Shown one piece after another: positions 2,409-4,314 of a DNA stretch of 17,521 nucleotides (positions within the stretch are counted from its first letter, which is position 1; each line of letters begins with the position of its first letter). The translations under genes and the position numbers were made by a program. The notes beneath the pieces are model-generated. The model had not been told where the DNA came from, ran no database searches, and saw only the letters and a list, made by a program, of their open reading frames with translations. Source of the stretch: an uncultured Eubacteriales bacterium (GTDB lineage: Bacteria; Bacillota; Clostridia; Peptostreptococcales; Anaerovoracaceae); the NCBI GenBank assembly GCA_902766915.1, contig CACXFN010000103.1:1-17521 (forward strand), in the 5' to 3' direction.

Positions 2409-3150
2409 TACATCTCCTCAATTCTATATTTTGAATACCCATATACTGGCTTTTTACATACTCATACGAAGTAAGATCGCCAATATCATATCGTCTCCCA
2501 GGCATTTTATAAGCGTGCAGAGGTATCCGTATAGATAGCCATGCAGCAAATGATCCCGGAGCGTCATATCCGCAGCCAGCGTCCAATGCTTCCTGTATCC
2601 TGTGGATATCAGCGGCGCGATAGAAATAGAACGGCGGCACTGCATGGTTTCCCTTCGGAACCTGCGGCTTTTCCTCATATGTTGTTATGAGGTTGTTCTC
2701 ATCCATCGTAATAACGGCTGTCTTCTGCAGCGCTTCCAACCGGTTTTCCTCATGACACATCACGCACGAGGTTCCCTTCTCCTGAGCAAAACGAACGAAA
2801 TGCTGAAGACTGAAATCCAGAACATTATCTCCGGCCATTACCACACAGTCATCTGTGATGCCCTGTGCTGCCAACTGGATGTCCTTAACAGCCCCCAGTC
2901 TGGTTTCGTTTGATTCCGTTCCATCATCTATGGTCCGGATCTTCTGTGGCTTTCCCTCAGCCCAGGTGTTAAACTGCGCTGCGAACTTGTGGTTGCTGAC
3001 CACGATAAACTCATCAATCAGCGGAGCTATGTCATCTACGAGCCAGTCCAATATGCTCTTCCCGGCAATCGGAAGCAGTGGCTTAGGGAAGTTCTCCGTG
3101 AGTGGGTAGAGCCTTGTGGCATACCCGGCAGCGAGTATAATGCATTTCAT
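2401..3150 (-). CDS. RmlA-like sugar-1-phosphate nucleotidyltransferase
   Basis: A 249-residue single-domain nucleotidyltransferase. The signature is at the N-terminus: LAAGYATRLYPLT (residues 6-18) followed by the Lys of FPKPLLPIAG (21-30); the metal-binding Asp lies in AGDN (106-109). The family joins a sugar-1-phosphate to an NTP to give an NDP-sugar and pyrophosphate. The ATG at 3150 overlaps the stop of the kinase gene as ATGA and has GGGGTGA upstream, so it is preferred over an in-frame start 27 bases earlier. This tight coupling to a GHMP sugar kinase suggests the two act in sequence: the kinase makes the sugar-1-phosphate and this enzyme activates it. Given the kinase type and the uronate genes around it, UDP-galacturonate is the likely product, but neither base nor sugar can be read from the sequence. 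Confidence 0.85.
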   Translation of the reverse strand: MKCIILAAGYATRLYPLTENFPKPLLPIAGKSILDWLVDDIAPLIDEFIVVSNHKFAAQFNTWAEGKPQKIRTIDDGTESNETRLGAVKDIQLAAQGITDDCVVMAGDNVLDFSLQHFVRFAQEKGTSCVMCHEENRLEALQKTAVITMDENNLITTYEEKPQVPKGNHAVPPFYFYRAADIHRIQEALDAGCGYDAPGSFAAWLSIRIPLHAYKMPGRRYDIGDLTSYEYVKSQYMGIQNIELRRCND

Positions 3151-4314
3151 AACTTCACCCCATCCGCAGAATCGCACAGTGCGCCAAGATATTTACCCCG
3201 CAGCGCCGGGTAAACGTTGAGATACTTCTCTTCGACACCGTGGAGCACATCGTCTGCCTTAGCGGGATCGACCAGCGCCATACAGCTTCCCTTGAATCCT
3301 GCGCCAGAAAAGCGGCCGCCATAAATACCGTCAGTTTCCGTCATGATGTTATAGAGCGTAATTAGTTCCGGACAGCCACATTCGTAGTTGTCAATACTGC
3401 TCTTCCCGGATTCGAAGATGAGGCGGCCATAAGCGGACAGATCTCCCTGTCTCCATGCCTCCGCTCCGGCTTCTGCCCGGGCATATTCAGAAAAATAGTG
3501 CTCCGCACGCTTACGGAAGTTGGCAGGTAATCGATCCTTATACGCTTCAAAAACAGGTGTGGGAACATCCCGTAAACGGGTATCCGCAAACTTTCCATAC
3601 TCCAAACCGGCGTGAGCAAGAAGACTATATGCCGCTGCCTTACATTCGTCCTGCCGGAGGTTGTAGGCAGAAGTGGTGAGAGAACGCTCTAATCCGCTGA
3701 AAAACACAGCAATCTTAAACTCTGGTCCTGTCCAGGGGATCAGCTGATAGCTATCATCCGCACAATCCAAATACAGGAGCTGATCCTTTTTACATAGTAC
3801 CTCGCAGCTCTGATCCAGCTTGCCGCAGTTGACGCCTACATACTTATTCTCAGCGGCCTTGGCCATCATGATGGTTTCCCAGGGATCAAGATAAATCCGG
3901 TTCACTGCAGCCAGGGCAGACACGAACGTAATGATCACAGCATCACTGCTGCTCAGTCCGCAGATGGGCAGCGTCCCCTCGATCACAGCACTGATCCCAT
4001 ATCTTAGCGGATACTTCTCTATCAGCATCTTTGCCGCTCCACGCATGTGATCCGCCCAGCCTCCGACCTTCTCCTCCGGAATACTGTTCACGTGGAACTG
4101 AGCCCGTTTGGGGAAGTTTAGGCTCTGCAACTCTACCACACCGTTCTCTTTCCGGTTGTATGCGATGTGGATGCCTTTATCTATCGCCAATCCATTGATC
4201 TTGCCCCCATTGATGGTCAATATGCGCCCCAAGGGGAGAGATACGGTAAGGACAGAAAGCTATGCCCTCAGGATCCTTATTATATGTCTTGAAGTATACT
4301 TCTTCACATCTCAC
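3147..4314 (-). CDS. GHMP kinase resembling galacturonokinase, frameshifted near the 5' end
   Basis: A galactokinase-superfamily sugar kinase. The uninterrupted frame (3147-4232) lacks the first sugar-binding motif. Bases just upstream encode it in another frame: PYRISPLGAHIDHQ. Removing one base from the G run at 4204-4208 joins both parts into about 388 residues. GAHIDHQ replaces the galactokinase GEHTDYN motif; the Glu that contacts the C6 hydroxyl becomes Ala, as in plant galacturonokinase. CGLSSSDA (restored residues 118-125) is the phosphate loop and D166 in GKLDQS is the likely catalytic Asp. NYECG and RFSGAGFKG near the C-terminus also match galacturonokinase as I remember it. The only in-frame start after an upstream TGA (4330-4332) is GTG at 4314, with a weak ribosome site, so the start is uncertain. 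ATGA overlap with the nucleotidyltransferase implies a kinase/pyrophosphorylase pair. A non-uronate hexose kinase remains possible. Confidence 0.75.
4204..4208 (-). other. frame break in a G5 run of the kinase gene
   Basis: On the coding strand the sequence reads CATCAATGGGGGCAAG. One G fewer gives His-Gln-Trp-Gly-Lys and joins the motif GAHIDHQ to the rest of the kinase. As written, the motif frame runs into a stop shortly afterwards. Loss of the extra T at 4209 instead would also restore the frame (His-Gln-Gly-Gly-Lys). Confidence 0.7.

Follow-up and report, generated by a model that had tools for sequence, protein, structure and literature searches.

A plant-type galacturonokinase homologue paired with an RmlA-like nucleotidyltransferase points to a candidate UDP-galacturonate salvage module in bacterial surface-glycan loci

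The window analysed here, 17,521 bases long, is the entire contig C103 of the assembly of an uncultured Eubacteriales bacterium of the gut or rumen, and its minus strand reads as a single surface-glycan operon (Table 1). Within this operon, a galacturonokinase-like gene (the kinase) is followed by a gene for an RmlA-like sugar-1-phosphate nucleotidyltransferase (NT) and by ugd, with a homologue of UDP-glucuronate (UDP-GlcA) 4-epimerase on the other side of the pair. Comparison with relatives in other genomes suggests that the locus probably belongs to a bacterial two-gene module for the salvage of free galacturonate into UDP-galacturonate (UDP-GalA), the kinase copy of the window itself being broken. 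The kinase motifs GAHIDHQ, GLSSS, NYECG and FSGAGF, the ATGA overlap between kinase and NT, and the presence of ugd and the epimerase homologue in the same operon had all been described in an initial annotation of this DNA and were found again. The latter two match Pfam above the cut-offs, Ugd with 94 bits to UDPG_MGDP_dh; against NF011631 (UDP-glucose 6-dehydrogenase) Ugd scores 551 bits and does not reach the cut-off of 757.

The kinase gene is not one open frame. GAHIDHQ lies at about 4230-4210 in one frame, while GLSSS, NYECG and FSGAGF lie in a different frame, inside a 361-aa open reading frame (ORF). Residues 1-40 of an intact relative, P0002, match 4195-4314 at 90% and residues 27-388 match 3150-4235, with the break located within 4195-4235. 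The 361-aa piece matches the Pfam domains GHMP_kinases_N (37 bits) and GHMP_kinases_C (32 bits), both above their cut-offs. All 8000 scored candidates, namely those with the most words in common with this piece, match it at E ≤ 0.001, and its best intact relative is a protein of 388 aa with 95% identity. Among the 120 relatives listed, 118 have a length of 384-391 aa; the window piece and one protein of 338 aa are shorter.

In a tree of 42 rows, the 18 galactokinases are split with a support of 100/100 from nine plant galacturonokinases and 15 bacterial rows (the 361-aa piece of the window, P0002 and 13 others). The identical galactokinase split appears in a second tree, built from 37 rows of which 12 are new, with a Shimodaira-Hasegawa-like approximate likelihood ratio test (SH-aLRT) value of 100. 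There, the bacterial rows form two lineages in no settled order relative to the plants, and the kinase of locus L003 groups with the plants at 94/83 in the 42-row tree. The trees either lack a root or have it placed on the galactokinases, and the plant rows are database proteins of which several are named galacturonokinase by their source. The likeness to plant galacturonokinases proposed in the initial annotation is thereby borne out, as the kinase groups with them and apart from the galactokinases. These results support a kinase of the plant galacturonokinase type, a membership claimed for the intact relatives, the window gene being a broken copy. Plant galacturonokinase (GalAK, EC 2.7.1.44; Arabidopsis At3g10700) has the clade, a GAH.DHQ signature and a set of 19 diagnostic columns in common with the bacterial kinases, and P0002 is 38-40% identical to four plant proteins.

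The diagnostic columns were called at 85% conservation inside each group (18 galactokinases, nine plant and 14 bacterial rows). Altogether, 34 columns tell the groups apart or divide them further, and 19 of these hold a residue common to plants and bacteria that is absent from galactokinases: G36Y, L40P, I41L, E43A, T45I, Y47H, N48Q, F177Y, M185L, A198L, L295W, H311G, L314S, V320C, D326I, V329Y, M343F, T344S and T352C. Numbering is that of the human enzyme, and the residues called catalytic or sugar-touching follow general background on galactokinases. R37, H44, D46, G183, D186 and Y236 are identical in all 18, nine and 14 rows. The catalytic residues are kept in 14/14 bacterial relatives, and those of the N-terminal part of the window copy lie in the other frame. 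In the loci L003 and L032-L054, GAH[IV]DH is found in 22 of 24 (ending in N in L048), with L050 and L053 lacking that part of the gene.

Galactokinase Glu43, the residue replaced in E43A, presumably contacts the C6 hydroxyl of the sugar, and its loss taken alone would suit equally well a sugar without that hydroxyl. The kinase substrate could then be another galacto-configured sugar lacking the C6 hydroxyl contact (L-arabinose or a 6-deoxy sugar) or glucuronate, and the pair would make the corresponding nucleotide sugar. The position of human Ile184, which is Lys in 12/14 bacterial rows and Ile in 9/9 plant rows, indicates that the pockets may differ, and NT homologues are fused to glucuronokinase-type kinases too. 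However, the 19 common columns and the tree tie the kinase to plant galacturonokinases by more than one substitution, and uronate enzymes recur nearby (the epimerase on 11/23 and ugd on 10/23 loci found from the kinase side, 9/17 and 3/17 on the NT side), making a different substrate quite unlikely.

The structure model of P0002 (predicted local distance difference test 92.3, predicted template modelling score 0.90) has human galactokinase GALK1 as its closest solved fold, with a template modelling (TM) score of 0.87. Galactokinase GalK (human GALK1, 6q3w/1wuu; PRK05322 and others) is thus alike in fold, in catalytic residues and in 26-29% identity; it differs in having GEHTDYN where the kinase has GAHIDHQ, and in its separate clade. 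Five NCBIfam galactokinase models match the 361-aa piece with 95-187 bits, none reaching its cut-off (227-509). A plain galactokinase was ruled out by the tree, the motif and these cut-offs. A second, galactokinase-like gene (31%) is present in 2/8 kinase-bearing genomes, which was counted in favour of the galacturonokinase assignment. Heptose or fucose kinases were also set aside: among solved structures, the only pointer to either is a weak match to the heptose kinase 3k85 (E 8e-4), and no curated model for either activity, neither HddA nor Fkp, is among the six NCBIfam models matched by the kinase. Two intact relatives, P0003 and P0012, are labelled 'galactokinase' by their source, which is probably wrong, and P0107 is labelled 'galactokinase/galacturonokinase'; the 19 columns offer a means of checking labels such as those of P0003 and P0012.

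A search with P0002 led to 23 genome loci, 21 of them usable, i.e. with the 3' end of the kinase and at least 300 bases beyond it. An NT gene comes after the kinase in 19 of the 21, counting L032 (first NT residues only) and L040 (partial NT match); L052 and L053 allowed no verdict. Among the 20 loci with ORF calls for both genes, 18 have them touching or overlapping, the exceptions being L049 (gap of 165 bases) and L003 (544 bases). The epimerase (at least 75% identity) is found on 11/23 and ugd (at least 69%) on 10/23 loci. The coupling of kinase and NT noted in the initial annotation is thus conserved well beyond the window. All four genes occur together on 7/23 loci, many of the 23 being cut by contig ends. 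In the genus sample of Butyrivibrio sp. Su6 (L048), the kinase is present in 6/61 genomes (E ≤ 1e-60), and the NT adjoins it in 5/5 further loci (L070-L074). In the phylum of the bin, 73/299 genomes match the kinase at E ≤ 1e-30, the genome of the window included; the motif was read in the 29 strongest of the remaining 72 matches and is GEH in 27, GGH in one and GAH in one, the latter being L003, which has an NT relative nearby.

The pairing was also approached from the NT side, with an NT-epimerase fusion as query against 295 genomes of the order of Butyrivibrio sp. Su6, scoring at most four candidates per genome, so that NT copies may be missed. This gave 21 matches over the NT part, of which 20 loci were analysed (that of G353 is already covered by L074). 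A galacturonokinase-like gene lies near the NT in 17/20 loci, within 100 bases in 16 and at about 700 bases in L125. Every locus with an NT of 48% or more identity to that of L044 (16 loci) has it, as does L138 (43%). All 17 kinases carry GAH[IVS]DH (L144, which is L048 again, has N as the last residue). As the epimerase adjoins in only 9/17 and ugd in only 3/17 of these loci, some of which are cut short, the kinase-NT pair often occurs without them. One contig (G594:C4, loci L142 and L143) carries two kinase-NT-epimerase sets about 120 kb apart. Two further irregularities were seen in related genomes: the ugd homologue at L038:3412-4637 is matched in two pieces of differing identity, suggesting a frame break in that metagenome contig, and the kinase match at L052:10001-10390 covers residues 2-131 and then ends, perhaps marking a second broken copy.

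The likely substrate of the NT was approached through longer proteins containing it, with 124 matches among 791 candidates, of which the 120 listed are counted here. In 46 of these, the partner of the NT is an epimerase homologous to that of the window, in 44 cases in the order NT then epimerase, giving an apparently bifunctional enzyme. Most of these fusions (e.g. P0241, P0248, P0275, P0281 and P0294) are about 570-615 aa long; two carry organism names (Clostridia and a Prevotella metagenome-assembled genome), and two are named UDP-glucuronate 4-epimerase. Five of the 120 join the NT to Ugd and 13 to a galacturonokinase-like kinase. In P0345, P0346 and P0349, a glucuronokinase-type kinase (Pfam PF00288; typed by eye) stands ahead of the NT, and in P0356 (Gracilaria domingensis, a red alga) and P0357 (Joint Genome Institute name glucuronokinase) the NT comes first; the NT kinship of these five is at 29-36% identity. 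Since fusions join NT homologues to the epimerase, Ugd or kinases of the glucuronokinase type, a uronate-1-phosphate fits best as the substrate of the NT, with UTP as the presumed nucleotide.

Among the NCBIfam models, the best match of the NT is AglF, a glucose-1-phosphate uridylyltransferase, with 83 bits (cut-off 400). This and the NT-Ugd fusions would agree with an NT that acts as a GalU/AglF-like glucose-1-phosphate uridylyltransferase feeding Ugd, so that NT, Ugd and epimerase form one de novo route, the kinase being a galacturonokinase whose GalA-1-phosphate goes to another enzyme. Also in keeping with this, a GalU above the TIGR01099 cut-off was found in 0/14 genomes (G000, G338-G345, G353, G364, G384, G385 and G405), although only 5/14 control genomes have one, and a UDPGP-type enzyme in only 7/14. 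On the other hand, the NT stands by the kinase without an adjoining Ugd in 14/17 loci, of which some are truncated at contig ends, the kinase and NT genes are as tightly joined as described above, NT-epimerase fusions far outnumber NT-Ugd ones (46 versus five), and the NT family is also fused to glucuronokinase-type kinases. We therefore regard this arrangement as unlikely and favour an NT acting on the product of the kinase. Activation systems of the HddA/HddC, Fkp and GlmU types were rejected, no curated model scoring above its cut-off (HddC 43 of 300 bits, GlmU 26 of 367 bits).

The epimerase of the window has 5u4q (deposited as dTDP-glucose 4,6-dehydratase) as its best PDB match with an E value of 8e-103, followed in third place by 6zl6. 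We take 6zl6 to be the Bacillus cereus UDP-GlcA 4-epimerase of published work and Thr178 to have a role in it. The equivalents of its Arg185 and Thr178 are kept in the window protein, as read from an alignment with positions counted by hand. According to PMC12338863, Arg185 holds the carboxylate of UDP-GalA in UDP-GlcA 4-epimerase. All 24 NCBIfam models matched by the epimerase are under their cut-offs, and no UDP-GlcA 4-epimerase model is among them. Beyond the epimerase lies a TupA-like ATP-grasp protein. Its family is associated with uronic-acid polymers modified by peptides, and the protein might add an amino acid at the carboxyl group of GalA. TupA-like matches are also found near the kinase-NT pair in L127 and L143.

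Taken together, the proposed module would work in two steps. By homology, the kinase would phosphorylate free D-galacturonate at C1 with ATP, yielding GalA-1-phosphate; by genomic context and fusions, the NT would then couple GalA-1-phosphate to a nucleotide, with UTP as the most likely donor, to give UDP-GalA. Ugd and the UDP-GlcA 4-epimerase would provide the de novo route to UDP-GalA and could interconvert UDP-GalA and UDP-GlcA, and UDP-GalA would feed the glycosyltransferases of the surface-glycan locus. The combination of salvage and de novo synthesis suggested by the initial annotation is backed by the kinase clade, the conserved NT coupling, the uronate-type fusions and the epimerase arginine, but does not hold in full for the window, where the kinase is broken; there the salvage route would be decayed or misassembled, while intact copies elsewhere presumably work as described.

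Several observations weigh against this reading. L035 and L051 (635 bases downstream) have no NT beside the kinase, the two genes are about 0.55 kb apart in L003 and about 0.7 kb in L125, and L139-L141 (NT 41-43%) have no kinase and unrelated neighbours. Of the 29 NCBIfam models matched by the NT, the 25 listed all have cut-offs far above its score. The kinase-NT fusions look damaged, P0246 lacking the NT start and P0317-P0321 and P0324-P0326 seemingly lacking the C-terminal region of the kinase; they were discounted as proof, being likely deletion joins (for P0246 and P0318 as judged from the sequence itself, for the rest from match coordinates). The remaining 56 of the 120 listed proteins, the five with glucuronokinase-type kinases among them, are 'other' fusions, many with unrelated neighbours and probably accidental. 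According to PMC3938481, the corresponding NT domain of zebrafish showed no activity in the standard assay, yet the abstract states a need for UTP. The window piece itself, beyond its first 12 residues, has nine differences from P0002. Three of these fall at columns that do not vary among the 14 other bacterial rows. The GGLSSSAA ATP loop holds two of the three, one being Ala to Asp at a position that is Ala in all 41 other rows.

The window copy may have suffered either decay, as a pseudogene, or an assembly error. That it is a functionless remnant or artefact has about even chances: besides the frame break and the three changes at invariant columns, the contig ends in an 87-base inverted repeat with a truncated TagD-like gene, and the genus of the bin offers no close homologue. 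On the other side, intact relatives are up to 95% identical, and the NT, ugd and epimerase genes nearby have uninterrupted frames; even if true of this copy, it would be compatible with the module proposed for the family and leave it untouched. The bin, G000, is 77% complete. A close kinase homologue is found in 0/12 other genomes of its genus, with a 33% partial match over about 200 residues in G305. The composition distance of the window, 0.131, is within the 0.092-0.315 of the bin's own contigs (16 readable of 20, four being all N), and composition thus does not set the contig apart from the bin. The pattern would agree with horizontal transfer as well as with a contig assigned to the wrong bin. 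Since the kinase is broken here and the genus has no close homologue, the salvage claim applies to the family and not to the organism of the bin.

Uronate isomerase is present in 13/13 kinase-bearing relatives tested and was not found in the window's own bin. It was dropped as a specific partner, since 58/61 genomes of the Butyrivibrio genus sample also carry it and it therefore shows only that free uronates are handled. According to PMC2914790, galacturonic acid in the medium drops during growth of Butyrivibrio proteoclasticus, and its authors propose that plant sugars, of which they name neutral ones, are recycled into exopolysaccharide.

Among known systems, plant galacturonokinase is the nearest. 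The bacterial kinase differs from it by its place in surface-glycan loci, its pairing with an RmlA-like NT and the Lys at human position 184; for the second step plants use UDP-sugar pyrophosphorylase, as stated in PMC8636097. The pair is therefore rated a bacterial variant of the plant salvage pathway with a different second enzyme and a surface-glycan setting. In zebrafish DrGKUP, a glucuronokinase/putative UDP-GlcA pyrophosphorylase, a uronate-1-kinase is fused to an NT-like, bacterial-type nucleotidyltransferase of 260 aa, whose bacterial homologues include proteins of Ruminococcus, Dorea and Butyrivibrio proteoclasticus (PMC3938481). P0356 and P0357 have a layout like the one described for it. 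DrGKUP differs in kinase subfamily and sugar, and in being a single fused protein. Bacteroides Fkp (L-fucokinase/GDP-fucose pyrophosphorylase) works alike, activating a free sugar by kinase and pyrophosphorylase (PMC11982464), but differs in sugar, nucleotide and proteins and is a functional parallel, not a member. In AmgK/MurU cell-wall recycling, an adjacent anomeric kinase and nucleotidyltransferase act on N-acetylmuramic acid; that kinase is not known to be related, and the NT of the window reaches only 41 bits against MurU (cut-off 250). The product of Fkp goes to surface glycans, and host fucose shapes the Bacteroides coat through it. In the open-access papers searched, those with 'galacturonokinase' are by title all on plants, and no bacterial enzyme appears in the titles or the opening parts of abstracts among the matches listed.

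Galacturonic acid is the main sugar of pectin, from which it would presumably come here, and gut and rumen bacteria are usually assumed to use it, in free form, as a source of carbon. A kinase-NT pair conserved in surface-glycan loci would, if true, mean that a diet sugar can directly shape the bacterial coat. More broadly, rumen and gut Clostridia might own a plant-type GalA-1-kinase together with an RmlA-like uronate-1-phosphate uridylyltransferase replacing UDP-sugar pyrophosphorylase, the pair might move between capsule loci and let dietary galacturonate enter the coat without UDP-glucose oxidation, and the NT family, fused to epimerase, Ugd or glucuronokinase, might be a general bacterial entry of free uronic acids into glycans; as a joint claim, this could go either way. 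The conserved pair would also suggest a substrate for a large family of nucleotidyltransferases left unnamed by the matched NCBIfam models, and offer a bacterial galacturonokinase as a source for UDP-GalA production.

The remaining genes of the operon are given in Table 1.

Table 1. Features of the window, with positions counted from its first base.
Feature	Position	Strand	Remarks
FnlA-like UDP-GlcNAc 4,6-dehydratase/5-epimerase family protein	89..1222	-	TIGR04130 485 bits, cut-off 730 not reached
ugd, nucleotide-sugar (UDP-glucose) 6-dehydrogenase	1158..2408	-	TIGR03026 310 bits, above cut-off 189.8
RmlA-like sugar-1-phosphate nucleotidyltransferase (NT)	2401..3150	-	ATG at 3150; NTP_transferase 84 bits, above cut-off; ORF as listed extends to 3177 (GTG start)
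ATGA, kinase stop (TGA) overlapping NT start (ATG)	3147..3150	-	
Kinase remainder, 361-aa ORF	3147..4232	-	GHMP_N, GHMP_C, GLSSS, NYECG, FSGAGF
Stretch holding the kinase frame break	4195..4235	-	two P0002 matches overlap in different frames
Kinase N-terminal part, GTG start at 4314	4195..4314	-	carries PYRISPLGAHIDHQ; other frame than the remainder
Short-chain dehydrogenase/reductase (SDR) epimerase, UDP-GlcA 4-epimerase type	4364..5455	-	Pfam Epimerase 177 bits, above cut-off
TupA-like ATP-grasp protein	5506..6441	-	PF14305 217 bits
Rest of surface-glycan operon	6448..17448	-	
CDP-glycerol glycerophosphotransferase-family genes, two	6448-7623 and 15911-17059	-	
Putative flippase	7634-9139	-	weak matE match, 19.5 bits, under cut-off
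Polymerase-like membrane protein	10174-11406	-	called by eye; no NCBIfam match
Glycosyltransferase	11420-12553	-	called by eye
Further glycosyltransferases and hexapeptide acetyltransferase	inside 6448..17448	-	
TagD-like gene, truncated	17032-17448	-	

The G+C content steps from 0.46-0.47 at the nucleotide-sugar end (1-6000) to 0.35-0.40 in 6001-15000, as in mosaic capsule loci. The two contig ends (1-87 and 17435-17521) form an exact inverted repeat of 87 bases, which may be an end of the assembly graph or a mobile repeat. The TagD-like ORF begins within this terminal repeat and presumably lacks its usual N-terminal part.

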